Origin: Thermoproteota archaeon
Lineage (GTDB): Archaea > Thermoproteota > Thermoprotei_A > Sulfolobales > Desulfurococcaceae
Direction of reading: 5' to 3'
Length of the DNA: 35,794 bases
Assembly (NCBI GenBank): GCA_030550615.1
Contig: JAUQPA010000011.1
Span: forward strand, 1 to 35,794
In this document: positions 11,436 through 22,738 of the stretch, piece after piece
Position numbering within the stretch: position 1 is the stretch's first letter
Layout of the letters: each line of letters opens with the position of its first letter
Notes under the pieces: generated by a model
The model's database searches: none
Seen by the model: only the letters and a program-made list of their open reading frames with translations
What the model was told of the DNA's origin: nothing
Program-made: the position numbers and the translations under genes

Positions 11436-12275
11436 TCACAGACCCCTTAAAAAAACATTTATAATTCCAAGAGTAATAATGAGAGCTTCCTCTGTTCTAA
11501 CTGAAACAACTTTTTGCCGTGGAATCGTATTCCAAACGTAGTCAACGTAGTCTCCTAGTTCAAATCCCTCCTGGCTCGATATCTCGAATAAGTCGAATCT
11601 TGGTCCACCGAACAGCAAAGTAACATCACTACCACGCATTACTTCAATTAACTCCCTGCCTGGATATACTCCGCTTCTATCAGTAGCAATCACGAACTTT
11701 GAAATAGCTCTGTATTTATCAACTGCTTCTCTCAAACTACCAGTGAATAGAAGCCTAGGACCCGTATACAGTGGAGTTTCTATGCATTCAACGATGCGTC
11801 TTTCTACATTTCTAACGCGGAGTGGTGTTAACCCTGTTTTTTCACATTGATTTACTACGGAGTACACGGCATCATCACCTATTAAAGCCCTTAGTTTCCT
11901 ATTAGAATCTCTATAGATGTAACCTACTCTGATCTCGTTGTTTCTAGGCTTCTTACTAACGTTGAAAACCTCTAGTCTTATCGGCGGAAGCATGCCTACA
12001 TACTTTAATAAAGGATTTATCGGAATAAGCTTTCTACGTAAATATGGCGGAGTAAAGAAGTATTTCCAGTGGTTCTCAATAAGTTTCTTGTGCTCGTTGA
12101 ATTCCTCGAGATCCGTGGATGGCTCCTTGTAGAAAACAACTTCGTGTACGCCAAATATCGAAGTCCAGCGGGCAACCTGGTGTATTCTAATAGATTTAAG
12201 AGCCAGGTGGTGTTCAACGCTAAGAATACTAGTTGGTAAAACAACTCTTAAAAACGTCTCTAGTAACGTGGACAT
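11436..12275 (-). CDS. COG2106-like SPOUT-superfamily RNA methyltransferase (predicted)
   Basis: ORF 279 aa; location immediately upstream of L3 is the usual archaeal position for this family; GGPRFDLFEI and WNTIPRQKVVSVRTEEALIITLGIIN near C-terminus fit SPOUT knot region. Confidence 0.75.
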   Translation of the reverse strand: MSTLLETFLRVVLPTSILSVEHHLALKSIRIHQVARWTSIFGVHEVVFYKEPSTDLEEFNEHKKLIENHWKYFFTPPYLRRKLIPINPLLKYVGMLPPIRLEVFNVSKKPRNNEIRVGYIYRDSNRKLRALIGDDAVYSVVNQCEKTGLTPLRVRNVERRIVECIETPLYTGPRLLFTGSLREAVDKYRAISKFVIATDRSGVYPGRELIEVMRGSDVTLLFGGPRFDLFEISSQEGFELGDYVDYVWNTIPRQKVVSVRTEEALIITLGIINVFLRGL

Positions 12276-12285
12276 TAACTACACG

Positions 12286-12408
12286 CTACTCTGATTTCGA
12301 AGGCTTCTTTTTAACTTCTTTTTCTTTGGGTTTACTCGCGGCTTCTTCCTTCTCCTTTTTAATTGTTTCTTTAATCATGAATATTGTTGTTCTCTGTCTC
12401 CCACCCAT
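12286..12408 (-). CDS. Small basic/acidic 40-aa ORF, MGGRQRTTIFMIKETIKKEKEEAASKPKEKEVKKKPSKSE
   Basis: Read directly from reverse strand; Lys/Glu-rich; lies 10 nt upstream of the SPOUT gene; below ORF-track cutoff. Confidence 0.5.
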   Translation of the reverse strand: MGGRQRTTIFMIKETIKKEKEEAASKPKEKEVKKKPSKSE

Positions 12409-12466
12409 TTATTAGTCACCTCGTGTTGAATCCACCTTGTTGATAATTTAAAACATCCAAATATAT

Positions 12467-14125
12467 TTAACGAGTGAAATTACTTGGTTTAAATGATACT
12501 GGCGTATATGTTTTAATAACTTTTGCTTCTCTCCTGGAAGTACTAACGAAAACTGCTTCTCCAACCCCCAACTTGGGTAGCAGCGTAGCATGTTCTTCTT
12601 TGAGGTTGAAAATTCTCGTTGTTTTATCAACGTAATCCCCGTTCCTAGAGCCGAAGACTACTATGTTATATATGTTCTCCAGTATTTCCCCAGGTATATC
12701 TTCCGGGTTTTGTGTTGATAGTACAACACCGAGTCTCCTACTTCTACCTTCCCTAACTATTTCAACTAGTGTTTTTAAGCCGAGAACACGCCATGCATCA
12801 TCAATTGCTAGTAGAACTCCTGATCCGCGTTCGTTTTCCCTTAGTAATATGTATCTCGAGAGACCAATACATAATCCTATATAGGCATTTTGATAGGATA
12901 CTCCATATCCTTCAACATCTATTAATACCCGCCCCTTCAGCAAATGATCAATCAATACATCTACACGCGAGTTCTTACTTAATAATTCAACGAATGGTAT
13001 TAGAATAGAAGCCTGTGGATTAACAAGTACACCGCTTTCTCCTTCTTTTTCAATAATGTTTAAAGCTCTAAGAACGCTGTCACTTGGTAGATTCCCAGCG
13101 CGTGATAACGCCTCTACGATCATAATTTTCCAATCGGCGGGATCTATCGCCGGAGGTTTAATTAAAATACTTAAAGGCACTTCCCGAGGGGTTATTAAGT
13201 TAATTAACTTATTCTCCAAGTATCGTTTAATATCTCCTTTAAAATCTAATGCAATAACGCTAACTACATCCTCGGAGAGAGCCTGCTCCAATATTCCTGC
13301 GAGAAGAGTTGTTTTTCCACGGCCAGTGGGACCAATTATAGCAGTATGCTTAAAGAATTCTTCAATAGCTACTTCCACCGGGTGTTGTGTATACTTATCG
13401 AACCCTATTACAATTGTTTTATCAAATGAGGGAGGTTTACTTAGAATAAGTGGTTGCATATGCGCTATTCTGTAAGCATCAACCTCCACGGTGTTAATTG
13501 AAGGTTTTTCTATTAAACCCAGCATGCTTAGAACAGCCTGAATAATATCGCTGTATGTGGCTCTCTCGAGTTTTAATCCATAGGTATTTCTAAAAGTACT
13601 GTGTATTATTGTCTCGTAGTAATCAGCTATATTTTTAGCTATACCCTTATCGTGTGATTTAACTCTATAAACTACGACAAGTGATATCTTAATGAACGGC
13701 TTACCGTTTAGTATCATGTCGTACATGTTTCTTAACTTAGACAACCTTATGTTGAGTTTTATTCTCGTTGATTCTTCAATACTGCTTTCAAGATCAACCT
13801 GTGTATTTAAAATTTCATTAGTTAATTTCTTAATCAAATGACTAGTATCTATTTCTTCTTTGACCAAGTACAAATGTACTCCTGAAGGTAGAGAATTAAG
13901 TAATGCTACATAAGATTCCATGAGGGTTCTCAGCGAGTTCTCCGAGAGATCGGAGGCGTTGTAATCAGCGTCTTTAAATATGAGGAATCTATTCAACACT
14001 ATTTTATTATCCGAGATGTAGATAATTAAGTCAGGTGGCTCAATCTCTACCCTAGAGATCCTTCCAGCGAAAACGCTTAGCGAAGCTGTATTTACTGCAG
14101 ATAGAAACTTATCGAGAAACCGCAT
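12467..14125 (-). CDS. HerA/VirB4-type ATPase, candidate CedB
   Basis: ORF 552 aa; Walker A GPTGRGKTTL, Walker B-like VLLAIDDAW, VVLSTQNPEDIP motif; adjacent to CedA/CedA1-like membrane genes. Confidence 0.8.
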   Translation of the reverse strand: MRFLDKFLSAVNTASLSVFAGRISRVEIEPPDLIIYISDNKIVLNRFLIFKDADYNASDLSENSLRTLMESYVALLNSLPSGVHLYLVKEEIDTSHLIKKLTNEILNTQVDLESSIEESTRIKLNIRLSKLRNMYDMILNGKPFIKISLVVVYRVKSHDKGIAKNIADYYETIIHSTFRNTYGLKLERATYSDIIQAVLSMLGLIEKPSINTVEVDAYRIAHMQPLILSKPPSFDKTIVIGFDKYTQHPVEVAIEEFFKHTAIIGPTGRGKTTLLAGILEQALSEDVVSVIALDFKGDIKRYLENKLINLITPREVPLSILIKPPAIDPADWKIMIVEALSRAGNLPSDSVLRALNIIEKEGESGVLVNPQASILIPFVELLSKNSRVDVLIDHLLKGRVLIDVEGYGVSYQNAYIGLCIGLSRYILLRENERGSGVLLAIDDAWRVLGLKTLVEIVREGRSRRLGVVLSTQNPEDIPGEILENIYNIVVFGSRNGDYVDKTTRIFNLKEEHATLLPKLGVGEAVFVSTSRREAKVIKTYTPVSFKPSNFTR

Positions 14126-14273
14126 GTTTCTTCACCGTTCTCGCCACGTACACTACTATCGCAATGAGCAGAAGCGAAATCAAGAAGTAAGTGGAATCAT
14201 TGTTGAAAACACAGAGTACTAATCCATGTATAAATAACATCAATACAAGTAATCGCGTAGATGAAAACCTCAC
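14109..14273 (-). CDS. 54-aa predicted membrane protein
   Basis: Read directly: MRFSSTRLLVLMLFIHGLVLCVFNNDSTYFLISLLLIAIVVYVARTVKKHAVSR; GTG start overlaps upstream stop by one base (TAGTG) and its 3' end overlaps the ATPase start. Confidence 0.6.
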   Translation of the reverse strand: MRFSSTRLLVLMLFIHGLVLCVFNNDSTYFLISLLLIAIVVYVARTVKKHAVSR

Positions 14274-15631
14274 TACAAATTCACCGTTAGCTTCGCTATG
14301 GATGAGGAGACGCCTCCAAGTAATCGAGCTAGATTAAGAGATATTGCCAGTAGAATAGCTATGTAAATCAACGGCAACACAGTTAATTCTATGAATGCAT
14401 AAGTCCCCAGCATGATGATAACTTCGGGCGAGGTAAAGTCCACGTTGAGAGCTCTCAAGGCATATGGATACAGGTCAACATCAAGCGGAGTTGTAGCATA
14501 GTAATTCAGATAAACTGTGACAACATGTTCTCCTGGCGGCAATATATAGCTTCGAACATGGTAATTCACGCTGTACCAATTCTTTGTTTCAAGAGTATAG
14601 TTTTCGGCAGGAACATTGTCTAATAGGACCACCACGTCATCGTCTTTTTCAACGTATAGTTTGAACTCGCCTTGATCAGTGGAAAATAAGCTAATATTAA
14701 CGCTTTTCTCGCCTCTAACTACTCCATTTACATATGTGTTTGAATCAATTAAAACGAAACGGTTTGGAGCTAACGCGATTACATCAGGTAAGTAGAGGGT
14801 GATATTCCATGCATTTTCCTGAGTTCTCCGAAGAGTAGACGCGTATTTTAAGTCAACTACATTAAGCACTACCTCGTGGTCAAAGCACGGGAATCCACTG
14901 TACTTGTTAACCTCAAGAACACCTTTCTCGTTGAAACTATACCTGTACAGTAGTTCACCACTGCTATATCCTTCTATAACTGCTTGTCCAAAAGAATTAT
15001 TTGATGCATCAACGAGCTCAATGTACGCACTACAAACATTGTTCCCGGCGATGAGTGTATAACCCATTGTACTAGTCACTAGATTTATGAATTGAGGCAT
15101 TAAAGGCAAACCAATTGAGAACACAACCGTGATAGCAATTAGAGTAGACCCGACGTTCCTAGTCAATTTGAATGGAACCGCGTGTAGAGCTATTCCTAGT
15201 CCTATTAGTATAGAAGAACCAGCATGTATTATTGAGGACACTATCGAAGTTGCGATAATAGTAGTAAGAGACGTAGATACTAAACCTATAACTTGGCTTA
15301 GAAAGCCTTGGACGAGAAAGTTCAGCCTTATTTTACTCAGTATTAATCCAATGCCTTTTAACGCCGCGAAGATAGTTAGCAGAATACTCGTTTTCTCAGC
15401 AAGCCATAACGCGTAGAAACCCCAATTAGTACCTAGAATTATGCCGAAGTATTCTATTAAGTAAACTATGATCTGATAGGAGAAAGTCAAAACACATGAG
15501 AATATGCTTTCATTCACGAGTGCTCTACCGAGTTTTTTAACTGCGAAGAAGGGTAATGGGAGAGCTTTTAAAGCTAAACCAAGGCAGTACGATAAAACAG
15601 ATAAGTAAAAAGCAAGAGTTAAGAAATCCAT
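14273..15631 (-). CDS. Polytopic membrane protein with a large predicted non-membrane insert, candidate CedA-like
   Basis: ORF 452 aa; about six hydrophobic segments near N-terminus, soluble middle domain and C-terminal TM; next to pilin-like gene and HerA-like ATPase. Confidence 0.65.
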   Translation of the reverse strand: MDFLTLAFYLSVLSYCLGLALKALPLPFFAVKKLGRALVNESIFSCVLTFSYQIIVYLIEYFGIILGTNWGFYALWLAEKTSILLTIFAALKGIGLILSKIRLNFLVQGFLSQVIGLVSTSLTTIIATSIVSSIIHAGSSILIGLGIALHAVPFKLTRNVGSTLIAITVVFSIGLPLMPQFINLVTSTMGYTLIAGNNVCSAYIELVDASNNSFGQAVIEGYSSGELLYRYSFNEKGVLEVNKYSGFPCFDHEVVLNVVDLKYASTLRRTQENAWNITLYLPDVIALAPNRFVLIDSNTYVNGVVRGEKSVNISLFSTDQGEFKLYVEKDDDVVVLLDNVPAENYTLETKNWYSVNYHVRSYILPPGEHVVTVYLNYYATTPLDVDLYPYALRALNVDFTSPEVIIMLGTYAFIELTVLPLIYIAILLAISLNLARLLGGVSSSIAKLTVNL

Positions 15632-15653
15632 TTAAAATACACCGAGAGCTAAT

Positions 15654-15920
15654 TTAAGGCATTTGTGGAGGTTGAGGCATGGGTAGTTGAACAGATGAAA
15701 CAATATAGGCTATGATAGCAAACACCGTTGTACCCATCGCCAACCAGAAAGCTGCCCAAACAGCATCTTCTATTAATCTCCCTCCGAATCTCTTAAGCTT
15801 TAGAAAAGGTATTGGTAGACCTTTAATTAACCAGCCGACAACCCATGCGAGTAGAAATATAAACCACGCGATTATCACAATTGTTGTAATTAGTCCTTTA
15901 ACAAACTCTATTAAATCCAT
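15654..15920 (-). CDS. Small two-TM protein, candidate CedA1-like (VirB2-type) pilin subunit
   Basis: ORF 88 aa: two hydrophobic helices separated by a basic turn KGLPIPFLKLKRFGGRLIED; Pro-rich tail. Confidence 0.65.
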   Translation of the reverse strand: MDLIEFVKGLITTIVIIAWFIFLLAWVVGWLIKGLPIPFLKLKRFGGRLIEDAVWAAFWLAMGTTVFAIIAYIVSSVQLPMPQPPQMP

Positions 15921-15995
15921 GTAATCACCTAATTACATAGAGATTGTTTAATAATAGGGGGGAGTGGTGAAAGTAAACCTAGCGGTGGTAGTAAA

Positions 15996-17930
15996 TTGAA
16001 GGAGATGTGGCCTTTAACAGTTAGGCTTTTCTGGGATCCATGGAGAAATACACCAGTAATTAAACCCAAACAGGAGGAAATAGATCTTTTGTATCAGTTG
16101 AAGCTGAGTGAACCGGGAGATGCACGCCCAGCTTTTCGTGGAGATCATGAAAGATTGAGAACAGCGATAGTCTATGAATTTGGAGATGATAAACTATATA
16201 GAAGATACATCGAAGGCAGATTTCTCCTCCTGAATAAAGTACCGCACTGGGATGTAATGTACGAAGTAGTGAGCTCAGGTAATGTTATAGGTCAACTATA
16301 CTATGATCCTTACATATCAACCTGGCGATTCAGATTAACTTATCAAGGAGCATACTTAGCTTACCAAGACAACATCGTGGACGTGGTTAAAGGCAAGCCC
16401 CCGTTCCATGTGGATAAAGCCATAGAATCAAATATAAGCACTAGTAGCAGGCAGGTAGTAATAGTAGATGAGAAAGGCTCGGTGAGAGGAGTTGGAGAAG
16501 TTATAAGCAATAAAGTTGTTGTAACCAAGGTGTTTTACGATAAAACACTACCTGTTGAGACCAGCGGTAAAACCGCTTCCTTGGAAGATGTCTTGAAGTA
16601 CAATAGAGAAGGATTGGAAGCTCTCGAGGAAAAAGCTATCAAATACCTTAAAAGAATACAAAATCGATATCCAAGTCTTAAACCGGTTGTATCTTACTCA
16701 GGTGGAAAAGATAGTCTTGTAACACTGGATTTAGCCCATAGGGCTTATGGAAGCTTAGAAATAATATTCAACGACACGGGTCTTGAAATGCCTGAGACAT
16801 TAAACAACGTTGAGAAAGTAGCTGATTTATATGGACATAAGCTCTACGTTGCATCAGCAGGAGATATATTCTGGAGAGCTGTAGAGGTTTTTGGTCCACC
16901 TGGGAAAGATTACCGATGGTGTTGTAAAGTAGCTAAACTAGTTCCAATAGCTAAACTAACTAAGACTGTTTGGCCTGGTGGAGCATTAAACCTGGTTGGC
17001 CAAAGAGCGTACGAATCCCTTGATCGCGCGAAAAGCCCTCTTGTATGGAGAAATAAGTGGATTCCACACATGATTAGTACTACCCCCATTCAATACTGGA
17101 GTCAATTAGCGTGTTGGCTATACATATACAAGTACAAGCTACCATACAATAGGCTCTATGAAGAGGGCTTTGATAGACTTGGTTGTTATTTATGTCCTTC
17201 ATGTGCTCTAGCTGAATATCGGGACGTGGAGAGAAAATACCCGGAGCTGTGGAGTAAATGGCTAAGTGTTCTCGAGAAGTGGCGTGATAAATTAAATATG
17301 CCTAGCGAGTGGATCAGCATGGGTTTATGGAGATGGTTAACCCCAGCAACAGCGAAGAAAAGAATAATTCACCGCCTGCCAGGGTATTCTATTAACTGGA
17401 GAGACGAGTACTTGTCGAGAATACGCGGTAGCAGAGTAAGTATTATACCCGAAGAAGTAATAAATGCAAATAAGTCGCTGGTATTGAAGTTTAATAACGA
17501 GTTAGTAACCGAGGAGAAAAGAGAAATCTTCATTAAAAACATTGTTAACGTTGGCTTCAACATAATCAACGAGAACCCGCTGGTTTTCGAGAAGAATGGA
17601 AACGTGTTTGAGTTAACGGGGGAAATATTGAGGGTCACAATGCAGGAGGAAAGCGAGGGATTCGAGGACCTGGTCGATGTATTAAAAGTAGTTTACCGAA
17701 TAAACGGATGCGTTCATTGCGGAAGCTGTGTCTTATGGTCTAAGAAAGGAGCTGTGAAACTAACGCAGAATGGTCCTTATCCCGTGGAGCACTTGAATGA
17801 AAAGCAAGCGAGGTTGTACATAGATGTGTGTCCTATAAGTGATCAGCTAGTAGAGAAAGTAATTGTACCATTAATAACGAATGATTATAAATCATACAAA
17901 AGAAAATCACGTAGAAAACCCATACTATAG
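15996..17930 (+). CDS. Phosphoadenosine phosphosulfate reductase-family (PP-loop) protein with C-terminal Cys motif
   Basis: ORF 644 aa; PVVSYSGGKDSLVTLDLA PP-loop, CCKVAK, CYLCPSC, CVHCGSC; TTG at 15996 or in-frame ATG at 16005. Confidence 0.85.
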   Translation: MKEMWPLTVRLFWDPWRNTPVIKPKQEEIDLLYQLKLSEPGDARPAFRGDHERLRTAIVYEFGDDKLYRRYIEGRFLLLNKVPHWDVMYEVVSSGNVIGQLYYDPYISTWRFRLTYQGAYLAYQDNIVDVVKGKPPFHVDKAIESNISTSSRQVVIVDEKGSVRGVGEVISNKVVVTKVFYDKTLPVETSGKTASLEDVLKYNREGLEALEEKAIKYLKRIQNRYPSLKPVVSYSGGKDSLVTLDLAHRAYGSLEIIFNDTGLEMPETLNNVEKVADLYGHKLYVASAGDIFWRAVEVFGPPGKDYRWCCKVAKLVPIAKLTKTVWPGGALNLVGQRAYESLDRAKSPLVWRNKWIPHMISTTPIQYWSQLACWLYIYKYKLPYNRLYEEGFDRLGCYLCPSCALAEYRDVERKYPELWSKWLSVLEKWRDKLNMPSEWISMGLWRWLTPATAKKRIIHRLPGYSINWRDEYLSRIRGSRVSIIPEEVINANKSLVLKFNNELVTEEKREIFIKNIVNVGFNIINENPLVFEKNGNVFELTGEILRVTMQEESEGFEDLVDVLKVVYRINGCVHCGSCVLWSKKGAVKLTQNGPYPVEHLNEKQARLYIDVCPISDQLVEKVIVPLITNDYKSYKRKSRRKPIL

Positions 17931-20759
17931 ATCCTTCTTCTTATCCTTAAGGTACTTCTTTATCTTCAAGAAATGTAATTCGTATTCGTATAGGACCTTG
18001 ATGAGATCCTCTCCACTCAAGATCTTGTTGATGATCTTAACTGCGTCACGAGTACCAACGCCTGGCGTAGATAATGCTAATACAGCTTTATCACCATATC
18101 TGTATAATAGTATAGCCCGCTCAACTAGATCTTTATGCATCTTCTGCTCCTCGACACTTAATTTTTCCCCTTTCCTAAGTTTCTTTACTAACTCTATTTC
18201 CTCGGTGGCATCTCCTTTAATTAGAGTTAACGTAGCTAAACCACATCTTGGACAGGAGTACTTATTCATTTTAATTACTTCTCCGACTTTGTTTTCCTTG
18301 AAATAACCACATTTAAGGCATAGTATTGAAATGCTTCGGTTTAGTAATCGCTCTAGAAAGCTGTTAGTGTCCAGCGGCGGGATCTCTTTCAACACCGGTA
18401 TTTCAATGTACCCGAGTAATATTAAGTGATGATCTTGAATTTTGTCATATTTTCTTAAAGTAACTTTTATTTTATTAATTGCGATTTTTTCGGTTAATTT
18501 CATGAAGGACTCGATATCATAGTCTCTTATTAAAACCTCCTTTAGAGCCTCTTTTCCAATAATAGTATCGGTAAATGCCTCCAGTAATCTTCTATTTACT
18601 TGTGTTGCTTCAGGCGAGATTGCGCCAAATCTTTGTGCAACCTGGTATATTCTCCACAAGTACTGTGTGCTATCCTTGGCAATTCTTTCTATTACCTCTC
18701 CATTTGCATACTCGTGGAGTTTATTGAGAACTTCATGTATTTTATCAACGGGGTTTCTTCCGGGCTCAAGTATACTTGTTTTCTGAAATTGTATAATAAT
18801 TGAATAAGGCGTTGAATGAACGTTGATCTTCAGGTAGGGATACGTTGATTTTAAAACATATTTTAATATATCTCTAACGAGGGCGTTAACTTTCGTTCCT
18901 CCATATATGTTAATAATAACGATGTCGAATCCTTGAATGTAATCCACTGTTATGTTTTCTACATCCCCTAGATCGCTCGCGCTCTTCAATCGATCGGGAT
19001 CAATACTCTTCTCCAACAAGTTTTCCAGGTGTGGTGGTAATTTAGATTGTTCTTTAATATGCTTCACTACCTCACCTACTTGTTGAGCAACCTCGTATTC
19101 AACTGGTATATTTTCCCCTTCCCAATGAGGAATAATGATTTCTTCTTTGAGTATTCCGGCAGATTCAACGTATAGTTTCTGCTCGTTTTCATCATAACTA
19201 ATAATTCTCCACGGTCTTCCAGCTAGAACTATTATGTCACCTGGATTTAGGTTTACAACGACATATTCTTCATCCAAGGTGCCTACTTTCTTGTTTGACC
19301 CAGCTTCAATGACTTGGACATCTCTCGTTGAAGGTATCATTGATGTTTTATACAGGTATAGTTTGGTTTTTCTAGTTGATTGCACTGTTTTATCATTGAT
19401 TTTAATGACACGAGTATACGCAAGATAATCTAGTACTTCATTAAACTCGCTTCTTGCGAGATTCCTAAATAACGGGTGCGCTGTGATTACATCGTAGAGT
19501 TCATCTACTAGTACCCCATTGGGATGCATGTATACGTATAGGGAGATTGCATACGCTAGGACATCCAGAGGCTTTGGTATTATGATCTCTCGTTCTAATA
19601 ATCCATTGATTGCACGCCACGTTATAACGCATGATTCGAGTAAGTGCAGAAGATTACTTGTTGTGATTACTTCTCCTTTACTCACGTCTCCTAGTTTATG
19701 GCGGCTTCTACCTACTCTTTGAATTAATCTTATTGCTTGTCTCGGAGACATGTACTGTATAACGTATTCAACGTGACCTATGTCTATACCAAGCTCTAGA
19801 CTAGAAGTTGATACGAGCATGTTTAACTTCCGATCTCTGAAGTCGCGTTCAACTTTTTCGCGATGCGCTCTAGATAAGCTGCCATGGTGAACGTCCAGGG
19901 AAATGTTCAGCTGTAGTTCATTTACTAGTTTACCTAGTAGAGCACTTAAGCTTTCTGCCAATGATCTAGTGTTAGTAAATACTAGAATATATTTATTTTG
20001 TTTCGTTTTCTCAACTATGTCTTCAATTCTTGCTGATAGTTCATCATCACCAACTATGCTGTTAATATCGTTACATAGGGGTTTCCCGCAATTAGGATAA
20101 ACAACTTTTACATCAAGTTTTCTAATCGATGGATCCTTCAATACCTTGACGTGATCATTCGCATTAAATGAGATAAGACTCTTAGCTTTTTCCTCGTCGT
20201 TGAGTGTTGCAGATAGCGCTATCTTCACTAATTTCTTTCCAAGAATTTTCTCAACTAGGTAAAGGGAGGTAAATAAAAGCAATCCTCTTTTACTTTCAAG
20301 TAGATCGCGGTATTCATCTATTATAACGTACTCTAAGTTATTCAAGTGTACTCGCATTTCATCATTTACAAGAATATAATTGAAAGTTTCAGGGGTTGTT
20401 ACTAGTATATGTGGAGGTGAATGAGCAATGCTTTTTCTAATTGATGCAGGGGTGTCACCGTGTCTTACACCCACGTTTAAACCAAAGCACTTAGCGATCT
20501 GATTTAATCTTCTCTCTATGTCTCGATTCAACGCTCTAAGAGGCGTAATGTATATTGCCGCTATGGGCTTGCTTTTATTAAGCGATATCTTTAACATCAC
20601 GGGAAAAACTGCTGCTTCGGTTTTACCGCTTCCCGTGGGGGCAACTATTATTAATGATCTATTGTTTTTAACTACCTCTACTAGGCTTTTCTTCTGGATC
20701 TCGGTTAGTTTTTGATAACCCAGGTCTCTAAGACATACTGCTATTTTATTGAAATCCAT
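17925..20759 (-). CDS. Lhr-like superfamily 2 DNA/RNA helicase
   Basis: ORF 944 aa; Walker A APTGSGKTEAA, TPLRALNRD, VTTPETF, STSSLELGIDIG, QRVGRSRH; C-terminal zinc ribbon CLKCG..CPRCG. Confidence 0.88.
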   Translation of the reverse strand: MDFNKIAVCLRDLGYQKLTEIQKKSLVEVVKNNRSLIIVAPTGSGKTEAAVFPVMLKISLNKSKPIAAIYITPLRALNRDIERRLNQIAKCFGLNVGVRHGDTPASIRKSIAHSPPHILVTTPETFNYILVNDEMRVHLNNLEYVIIDEYRDLLESKRGLLLFTSLYLVEKILGKKLVKIALSATLNDEEKAKSLISFNANDHVKVLKDPSIRKLDVKVVYPNCGKPLCNDINSIVGDDELSARIEDIVEKTKQNKYILVFTNTRSLAESLSALLGKLVNELQLNISLDVHHGSLSRAHREKVERDFRDRKLNMLVSTSSLELGIDIGHVEYVIQYMSPRQAIRLIQRVGRSRHKLGDVSKGEVITTSNLLHLLESCVITWRAINGLLEREIIIPKPLDVLAYAISLYVYMHPNGVLVDELYDVITAHPLFRNLARSEFNEVLDYLAYTRVIKINDKTVQSTRKTKLYLYKTSMIPSTRDVQVIEAGSNKKVGTLDEEYVVVNLNPGDIIVLAGRPWRIISYDENEQKLYVESAGILKEEIIIPHWEGENIPVEYEVAQQVGEVVKHIKEQSKLPPHLENLLEKSIDPDRLKSASDLGDVENITVDYIQGFDIVIINIYGGTKVNALVRDILKYVLKSTYPYLKINVHSTPYSIIIQFQKTSILEPGRNPVDKIHEVLNKLHEYANGEVIERIAKDSTQYLWRIYQVAQRFGAISPEATQVNRRLLEAFTDTIIGKEALKEVLIRDYDIESFMKLTEKIAINKIKVTLRKYDKIQDHHLILLGYIEIPVLKEIPPLDTNSFLERLLNRSISILCLKCGYFKENKVGEVIKMNKYSCPRCGLATLTLIKGDATEEIELVKKLRKGEKLSVEEQKMHKDLVERAILLYRYGDKAVLALSTPGVGTRDAVKIINKILSGEDLIKVLYEYELHFLKIKKYLKDKKKDL

Positions 20760-20785: not shown

Positions 20786-22738
20786 TTGGTTAAATCCAAT
20801 TTAAACCTCATGAGTAAAGTGTCGGGAATGAACAAGCATAATATGTTAAAATACAGTAGAACGTACGGCGTAATGGTTATAAATATTATAATGTTCTACA
20901 TGTTCAATGAAATACTAAAGGGAAGATCGATCTCCTCGGGTAGTAGTATAGTAGGTCTCGTTAGCGTAGCTTTCACAACATTCTTTCTTAATTCGATCTC
21001 ATATGTTGCTTTATCGGTAGCACATGTATTAGTAGTTTTAGTACTTACAATGGATTTGCTTTCAGCGTATCTAAATAGAGTCTTGTTTGCACTATACGTG
21101 TTTCTTATTCATGGTTTAAATAGTTACGTTGCTTTAATGGAAGCTTCGAGCTTACTACTATCTATTATAATAGTTAGATTAATTAAGATTGCTCAGATCA
21201 CACTAGCATCGCCTATAGCTAATTTAACTAAAATACAGTGGAGTAAGTCGCGGAGAAAACTTGAAGCACCAGAGTTACCTCTGATACTGGCTTCACACAG
21301 CTTGGCATCATCGCTGCTGTTCTTATTATTTATCCATGTCATCGGCTTCAATGTATTGATCGACAGAGCGCTATTCTTTATTGCATTTAACATAGCTCTG
21401 CCTTTACTACTACTTATAGTAGGTATAATTATAAGCACGAGCTCGGAGATATCGGAGTACGAGCTAGTCGGGTTTGCAAGCGGCTTGAGCTTAATGGGTT
21501 TCGTTCCTTTCCTAGCATCATTATCCACCTCGGAGAACAGTCTTTTCCACTATGATTTAAGAAAAATAGTGTATGCTCACGCCCCAGGACTCTATCTCGG
21601 CGAAGCAGAAGCTTTCTTAACTTACGGTGCCCCCAGGAATATGTATGAAAAACTAGCGAGGCATGGGATCTCGGTGAAAACTAGTGAAAAAACCTGGTAT
21701 TGGCGAAGAACAAGACATCCTATTTACGTTAGATTAGATGAGTTGAACACTCCTCACGTGATCATAATAGGGGCATCGGGCTCCGGTAAAACATCTCTAG
21801 CTAAGCACATAGCTGTGAGTTCAAGTAAGCAATATGGATACAACTTAGTAATAATTGATCCGCACGGTGAATATAAAGACATCGCTGATATAGCGAAGTG
21901 TAGAGTAATAGATGCTTCTAAACATGTTTTTAATCCACTATATCTCGAGAACACCTCGCCGAGAGAAAGAGCTCTTCAATTATCTCACGTTATATCAACG
22001 ATTTTTAAACTAGGCCTTTTACAGAGGCAAATGCTCGAAGAAATAATACTAAAAGCATACGAGTCTAAGGGAATAATCCAAGAGGATCAGTCCACTTGGG
22101 CGAAAACACCTCCCACAATCGATGATTTGGTAGCAACTTGTAGAGAACTAGGGGAAATTTCCCAGGAATACATGCGTGTTTTGCCGTACCTTATTTTACT
22201 ACGAGAAAACATAGGTTCAGGAACATTGCTGAGTATCGATGAATTATTCTCTGGAAACGTTATTATAGACATAAGCGGGTTCTCAAGTGATTTCGCGAGA
22301 GCACTGTTTCTCGATACTTTGATGTACATGTTGATCAACAAAATGTATAGTATGAAAAGCGCCAAGAGAATTCAAATCGTATTCGAAGAAGCAAGGGGAT
22401 TAATGCCGAGGAAACTATCCAGAGAACTTCTTTCTAGGTTATTTACTGAAAGCAGAAAATTCGGTTTCTCCATAATAGTTATCTCTCAGGAACTACATGG
22501 GATACCTAGGGTGTTAATAAATAACGCTGGGTTACGAGTGTTCTTTGTGCTAAATGAACCTAAGAGCATTGAAGGCGCATCTAAGATCATTGCTGGATCA
22601 GATGTAAGGGACAAAATACAGGTGATCTCCGAAGCTCTCAGAGCACTTGATTCCCACGTGTTTATACTGCATGTAACAGGTGTTGAAACAGTATTTGTTG
22701 CCAGATCCCCTCTTTTACCAACCTTATCTAGTCGGTGA
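20786..22738 (+). CDS. Membrane-anchored HerA/FtsK-fold ATPase
   Basis: ORF 650 aa; N-terminal ~250 aa contains multiple hydrophobic segments; Walker A GASGSGKTSL; IDPHGEY; Walker B-like IQIVFEEAR; IIVISQELHGIP. Confidence 0.8.
   Translation: MVKSNLNLMSKVSGMNKHNMLKYSRTYGVMVINIIMFYMFNEILKGRSISSGSSIVGLVSVAFTTFFLNSISYVALSVAHVLVVLVLTMDLLSAYLNRVLFALYVFLIHGLNSYVALMEASSLLLSIIIVRLIKIAQITLASPIANLTKIQWSKSRRKLEAPELPLILASHSLASSLLFLLFIHVIGFNVLIDRALFFIAFNIALPLLLLIVGIIISTSSEISEYELVGFASGLSLMGFVPFLASLSTSENSLFHYDLRKIVYAHAPGLYLGEAEAFLTYGAPRNMYEKLARHGISVKTSEKTWYWRRTRHPIYVRLDELNTPHVIIIGASGSGKTSLAKHIAVSSSKQYGYNLVIIDPHGEYKDIADIAKCRVIDASKHVFNPLYLENTSPRERALQLSHVISTIFKLGLLQRQMLEEIILKAYESKGIIQEDQSTWAKTPPTIDDLVATCRELGEISQEYMRVLPYLILLRENIGSGTLLSIDELFSGNVIIDISGFSSDFARALFLDTLMYMLINKMYSMKSAKRIQIVFEEARGLMPRKLSRELLSRLFTESRKFGFSIIVISQELHGIPRVLINNAGLRVFFVLNEPKSIEGASKIIAGSDVRDKIQVISEALRALDSHVFILHVTGVETVFVARSPLLPTLSSR

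Follow-up and report, generated by a model that had tools for sequence, protein, structure and literature searches.

The crenarchaeal exchange-of-DNA (Ced) system has been studied experimentally in Sulfolobales and Aeropyrum pernix. There, CedA1 assembles together with lipid into hollow pili, and DNA import depends on CedA, CedA1 and CedB. The question at stake is how DNA that enters by the CedA1 pilus passes CedA and reaches the CedB motor. In the published view, Ced has neither VirB3 nor VirB8 (PMC11868833, PMC9905601), and the small membrane protein CedA2 was called not conserved (PMC9905601) and absent from A. pernix (PMC11868833). An attempt to delete its gene did not succeed (PMC11868833). 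Here, a 35,794-nt stretch of contig JAUQPA010000011.1 (hereafter the window) was analysed from a metagenome-assembled genome of a Desulfurococcaceae archaeon (1.29 Mb, 67 contigs, 93% complete). Its minus strand carries a four-gene cluster, cedA1-cedA-cedA2-cedB, the assignment of which to Ced is nearly certain. The cluster very probably represents the chromosomal core of Ced DNA exchange, a domesticated type IV secretion system (T4SS) in the compact form found outside Sulfolobaceae. While the Ced system itself was already known, what is new is a compact operon that is conserved and encodes a large CedA, the occurrence of CedA2 across the order and its proposed VirB3-like role. The following features were recognised (window positions):

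15924..15929, minus strand: Shine-Dalgarno-like GGTGAT directly 5' of the cedA1 start codon, from reading of the sequence
15654..15920, minus strand: cedA1, an 88-aa two-helix conjugative pilin, VirB2-like, from matches to NF041797 and PDB 8dfu_B
14273..15631, minus strand: cedA, a 452-aa polytopic pore protein, VirB6-like, from matches to NF041796 and a hidden Markov model (HMM) of Sulfolobaceae CedA
14504..15037, minus strand: beta-rich insert of CedA, residues 199-376, from AlphaFold, Foldseek and the gap in the HMM alignment
14109..14273, minus strand: cedA2, a 54-aa two-helix membrane protein with a GTG start, candidate VirB3 equivalent, from position, size, topology and a family HMM
12467..14125, minus strand: cedB, a 552-aa HerA/VirB4-family ATPase without an N-terminal transmembrane (TM) helix, from NF041017, the ATPase tree and AlphaFold/Foldseek
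13310..13333, minus strand: Walker A motif GPTGRGKT of CedB, invariant or nearly so in 43 relatives

The four open reading frames (ORFs) of 88, 452, 54 and 552 aa are thus where the initial annotation had placed them, and the overlaps are confined, as it had read, to the last three genes: the cedA2 start codon and the cedA stop codon have one base in common and the cedA2 and cedB ORFs overlap by 17 nt, while cedA1 and cedA are separated by a 22-nt gap. The adjacency to a ribosomal-protein cluster was also borne out, with an RNA-methyltransferase gene (11436-12275) in between. The other flank carries helicase and threonyl-tRNA synthetase genes. The closest named relative is KUA_Bin13 (Desulfurococcaceae archaeon), with 97% identity in CedA1.

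In comparison with the Sulfolobales Ced (van Wolferen 2016; PMC11868833), the window has the same four components and the same order cedA1-cedA-cedA2, and CedD is likewise encoded in its genome. On the other hand, cedB is part of the operon in the window, whereas in Sulfolobaceae it lies far from cedA1-cedA-cedA2. The window's CedA has an insert of about 200 aa that is missing from Sulfolobaceae, its CedB lacks an N-terminal TM helix, and the CedD orthologue of the genome apparently consists of two ORFs. The A. pernix system (8dfu, PMC9905601) shares a homologous CedA1, a large CedA and a cedB directly 3' of it, but its cedA and cedB have no small gene between them, and a TM helix forms the start of its CedB. 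The Ted system of Thermoproteales (TedA, TedB and TedC) fills the same pore, ATPase and pilin roles (PMC9905601), although the signal peptide of TedC is cleaved off and its sequence is not recognisably similar to CedA1, and no counterpart of CedA2 has been reported for it. The VirB6-VirB3-VirB4 segment of bacterial T4SS, both Gram-positive and Gram-negative (e.g., prgH-prgI-prgJ of pCF10), has the same order of pore protein, small two-TM protein and overlapping ATPase (PMC12857230). There, however, VirB3 has a size of 10-15 kDa as opposed to about 6 kDa for CedA2, no sequence similarity between the two is detectable, and VirB8 was not found here.

The 88-aa protein scored 110.8 bits against the NCBIfam model Ced_CedA1 (NF041797), above the equivalog cut-off of 100, and matched 8dfu_B, the solved A. 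pernix CedA1 pilus subunit, with an E-value of 1.7e-22. Judging from these matches, it is CedA1. Comparison of 98 genomes of the order, of which 81 have CedA1, provided 80 further loci (8-20 kb around cedA1) beside the window, i.e., 81 loci in total. In one complete Sulfolobaceae-like genome (L109, G066:C1:117749-117974), cedA1 is interrupted by an in-frame TAG, with cedA and cedA2 intact. In three near-complete genomes of genus g2 of the window's family (G009, G030 and G041), no CedA1 and no strong CedD were found, which fits the published remark that Desulfurococcus has VirB4 instead.

The 452-aa protein gave 131.7 bits with the CedA model NF041796 over residues 2-203. This is far under its equivalog cut-off of 330 bits and counts against the assignment. 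The Sulfolobaceae CedA HMM, however, aligned to residues 2-188 and 411-445 (1.7e-40), flanking an insert on either side. The AlphaFold model (71 sequences, predicted local distance difference test, pLDDT, 89) has a helical bundle, a beta-rich domain at residues 199-376 and a long C-terminal helix, corresponding to an architecture of six N-terminal helices, a beta-sandwich insert and a C-terminal TM helix. On these grounds the protein is identified as CedA with a beta-sandwich insert of about 200 aa, which in the model probably lies outside the membrane. CedA is 252-310 aa long in the Sulfolobaceae-like family f11 and about 440-580 aa in nearly all other families, and in those 47 large CedA proteins that match the HMM on both flanks, the insert has a length of 196-248 residues. 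Since insert-bearing CedA is common outside f11, the large form is the rule rather than an oddity of the window organism. The initial annotation, which had found CedA larger than expected because of a soluble insert, was therefore right about the insert, but not in regarding the size as peculiar, as this is the normal form outside Sulfolobaceae. Foldseek returned only generic Ig/transthyretin-like beta-sandwiches and no specific structural relative of the insert. The idea of a VirB8 hidden in it was rejected, as these matches differ from the NTF2-like VirB8 domain. One CedA of 281 aa (L129) is probably broken.

The 552-aa protein was first described as a HerA/VirB4-type ATPase, in agreement with its Pfam matches to DUF87 (43 bits) and HerA_C (41 bits). 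With 85.9 bits it is the best match to the CedB model NF041017 in its genome, although this is far below the equivalog cut-off of 700 and speaks against CedB. Such a score would be expected if the ATPase was not CedB but a recruited member of the HerA family (HerA, CedD, VirB4/TedB or TM-HerA). However, the cut-offs of the CedB and CedD models were passed in just 12 of the 98 genomes, all of f11; because only f11 genomes pass, these NCBIfam models seem to be Sulfolobaceae-built. Moreover, in a tree of 90 ATPase domains, the window ATPase and 38 other operon ATPases fell into one clade with the CedB of Sulfolobaceae and with that of families f2, f3 and f5, where the gene is dispersed (Shimodaira-Hasegawa support, SH, 0.98), separate from CedD, HerA and the TM-HerA family. 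Within this clade, the operon ATPases and the CedB of f2, f3, f5 and f11 form two sister groups, whereby orthology depends on one node. The match to the model also extends over the N-terminal region specific to CedB (residues 44-309 on profile positions 74-326), and separate CedD and TM-HerA proteins are encoded in the same genome. Recruitment of another ATPase is thus very unlikely, and the 552-aa protein is CedB by its place in the tree. Its AlphaFold model (pLDDT 84) resembled HerA (4d2i) and R388 VirB4 (8rtd, 7o43) in Foldseek, the match to 8rtd_P having an E-value of 8.6e-15.

CedD is encoded apart from the cluster (G000:C60:12262-13275; 259 bits over profile positions 186-526) and grouped with Sulfolobaceae CedD in the tree, as expected from the reported co-occurrence of CedB and CedD (PMC11868833). 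Its gene (G000:C60 ~11855-13275; L147:3856-5276) seems to be split, with an ORF of about 110 aa overlapping or abutting an ATPase-only ORF, and likewise in three relatives. A split CedB was seen in families f3 and f5 (L140-L146), with an N-terminal ORF of about 190-210 aa adjacent to an ATPase ORF of about 350-400 aa. The Walker B motif of the window CedB is DDAWR instead of DEAWR, with Asp replacing the catalytic Glu (residues 442-443, ~12797-12802, minus strand). The same motif occurs in six close relatives among 43 sequences.

Overall, the identification of the cluster as the Ced machinery of the organism, proposed in the initial annotation, was supported by the CedA1 equivalog match, the CedA profile match and the CedB clade in the tree. 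The profile searches against the Ced models that it had called for linked the 88-aa protein to CedA1 and the 452-aa protein to CedA. A second CedA or CedA1 locus, let alone a better one, was not found with the two models in the 93%-complete genome. The gene identities, the operon-like layout and the conservation across the order are direct observations: cedA follows immediately 3' of cedA1 in 77 of the 81 loci, and cedB immediately 3' of cedA in 39 of these 77. In Sulfolobaceae, cedB is separate from cedA1-cedA-cedA2, and cedA2 and cedB are not neighbours in families f2, f3 and f11.

The homology of CedA1, CedA and CedB to VirB2, VirB6 and VirB4 (PMC9905601), together with the presence of VirB4 in archaeal conjugative elements (PMC6563490), would also be compatible with a cluster that serves an integrated conjugative element as its secretion module, for export of the element and not for import of chromosomal DNA. 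The setting of the locus makes this highly improbable. It is flanked by housekeeping genes on both sides (ribosomal and RNA methyltransferase; helicase and threonyl-tRNA synthetase), the methyltransferase neighbour is kept downstream in 10 of 10 loci of the family, and CedA1 occurs in most genomes of the order, as given above. Among the examined proteins, which represent part of the window's ORFs, none was recognised as a relaxase or an integrase. No plasmid record matched the ATPase, and a plasmid origin was rejected.

The 54-aa ORF, which the initial annotation had covered loosely as one of the small CedA1/CedA2 membrane proteins, can now be specified: the 88-aa protein is taken as CedA1 and the 54-aa protein as CedA2. 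A direct match of the latter to a VirB3 or CedA2 model was sought and not obtained; in particular, it did not match NCBIfam Ced_CedA2 (NF041798, cut-off 80 bits). Among Sulfolobaceae-like CedA2 proteins, that of L094 (f11, S. acidocaldarius-type) scored 98 bits and another just 23.8, which marks NF041798 as a narrow model. Loci were compared by position, the CedA2 slot being defined as an ORF of 44-66 aa with two hydrophobic helices directly 3' of cedA. Such an ORF was present in 57 of 77 loci, a count that includes L059 (outside the hydropathy threshold and identified by hand) and L106 and L119 of f3. Behind other large genes of the same loci it was found in only 15 of 976 cases (1.5%; Fisher p ~1e-62, with related loci not being independent). 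The slot was occupied in all loci of f1 (10/10), f2 (10/10), f3 (12/12), f8 (10/10), f10 (2/2) and f11 (12/12), in 1 of 3 of f4, and in none of f5, f6 and f9. In 14 of 17 close pairs of small genes dN/dS was 0.06-0.62, while three pairs, among them the two that involve the window protein, were too diverged for a judgement; values below 1 in the 14 pairs indicate that the ORFs downstream of cedA are proteins under purifying selection. With a similar ORF recurring in this slot across the order, the 54-aa ORF is judged to be a real gene.

Whether the small genes of different families have a common origin was less obvious from their sequences. Across families they have 8-30% identity to the window protein, those of f3 have no sequence or profile link to CedA2 and are tied to it by position only, and hhalign between the families was mostly no better than with reversed controls, the best probability (f1-f11) being 26%. 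These points count against a single family and would fit unrelated membrane proteins of independent origin. However, the same slot, length and two-helix pattern recur in seven families, and family HMMs gave links above background for f1-f11, f1-f2, f8-f11 and f8-f2. The HMMs were run against a background of about 650 other small hydrophobic ORFs, non-coding ORFs included. The ten best ORFs outside f1 found with the f1 HMM, out of 693 candidates, were all cedA-downstream genes, f11 CedA2 first. Reciprocally, the best match of the f11 HMM was L055, from the window's congener (E 1e-6). The case for common descent is thus strong but not perfect, and independent origin, considering also the rarity of such ORFs behind other genes, is unlikely. 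By position, size, topology and family-HMM links, the 54-aa gene is assigned to cedA2. The published view of CedA2 as absent or not conserved holds for A. pernix, since the A. pernix-type locus L083 (f6) has the 8dfu pilin sequence (identical over the aligned region) and no CedA2, but by the comparison made here it does not hold for most of the order.

In a 2025 review, the VirB3 of monoderm systems is characterised as a small two-TM protein whose gene follows virB6 and partly overlaps the virB4 behind it, as in prgH-prgI-prgJ (PMC12857230). Fusions of VirB3 with VirB4 occur in some cases; VirB3 tethers the central hexamer of VirB4 to the membrane, and it was proposed to recruit VirB2 (PMC12624023). 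As integrative elements of thaumarchaea have been reported to carry VirB3 homologues (PMC6563490), the VirB3 gap concerns Ced and Ted and not all archaea. The order cedA1-cedA-cedA2-cedB corresponds to VirB2-VirB6-VirB3-VirB4, which puts CedA2 in the diagnostic VirB3 position. It stands directly 5' of cedB, usually overlapping it, in 23 loci (the window and 22 others) of f1, f4, f8 and f10. Two hydrophobic stretches, by hydropathy only, were present in 54 of 54 family members, and the mean net charge was +1.5 at the N-terminus, -0.2 in the loop and +0.9 at the C-terminus, which suggests that both termini are cytoplasmic, as expected for VirB3. Moreover, an N-terminal TM helix of CedB was above threshold in 12 of 16 loci without CedA2 and in 6 of 23 with it (Fisher p 0.004, the 39 loci being clustered by family and not independent). 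Position and topology thus argue for a VirB3-like role. Several observations weigh against it: this trade-off is partial, with 6 of 23 loci having both and two loci neither; CedA2, at about 6 kDa, reaches half of the 10-15 kDa that are typical of VirB3; and no VirB3 or TcpE family was among the Pfam matches listed for 44 CedA2 members. Since no VirB3 sequence match was obtained, CedA2 is not filed as a member of the VirB3 family.

Alternatively, the protein might be CedA2 by descent but act as a minor pilin or pore accessory instead of a motor anchor. In PMC9905601, citing van Wolferen 2016, CedA2 of Sulfolobales is reported in a membrane complex with CedA and CedA1; one Sulfolobaceae CedA2 weakly matched the conjugative pilin TraA (E 0.017), and in f2, f3 and f11 the gene is apart from cedB. 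In contrast, the pilin slot is already taken by CedA1, and both the position directly 5' of cedB in the 23 loci and the charge pattern speak against an accessory role. An accessory role is a serious possibility, albeit somewhat short of an even chance.

In the favoured interpretation, CedA would form the pore in the membrane beneath the pilus, its beta-sandwich domain lying outside the membrane, and a CedB ring, probably together with the separately encoded CedD, would drive DNA through the pore, the imported homologous DNA then serving recombinational repair. CedA2 would take the part of VirB3: it would hold the CedB ring, which is otherwise soluble, in place beneath CedA and assist in recruiting pilins. 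For this role of CedA2, we consider the chances about equal either way. In lineages without CedA2, the N-terminal TM helix of CedB itself may take over. Comparison within the order suggests that the Sulfolobaceae models are the derived ones, with cedB relocated and CedA having no beta domain. The combined proposal, i.e., that CedA2 is a fast-evolving VirB3 equivalent that anchors CedB to CedA and recruits CedA1, and that the Desulfurococcales gene order is ancestral whereas Sulfolobus broke it and lost the beta-sandwich, is put forward tentatively, at slightly less than even odds.

Apart from the four genes, several neighbours recur near cedA1. A 650-aa protein (20786-22738, plus strand) carries a HerA/TraG-like ATPase domain at its C-terminus and many hydrophobic stretches in its N-terminal part. 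It belongs to the sister clade of CedB in the tree. In 16 of the 81 loci, from four families, its gene is found no more than 10 kb away from cedA1, and orthologues are also present in Sulfolobaceae; it is a candidate for a Ced-associated or coupling-protein-like ATPase. An Lhr-type DEAD/DEAH helicase (17925-20759, minus strand) is near cedA1 in f1, while in f3, f8 and one locus of f9 (19 loci counted) it is immediately 5' of cedA1 and co-directional; it is possibly part of Ced DNA processing. A 644-aa PAPS-reductase-like protein (15996-17930, plus strand), related to PRK13795 and more distantly to BrxP/DndC, is encoded next to cedA1 in divergent orientation in all f1 loci (10 of 10) and has this place in f2 and f4 loci as well.

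Should CedA2 be widespread and VirB3-like, bacterial conjugation and the archaeal machine would have the same minimal core of pore, anchor and motor. CedA2 would then be a concrete protein to delete, localise and solve.

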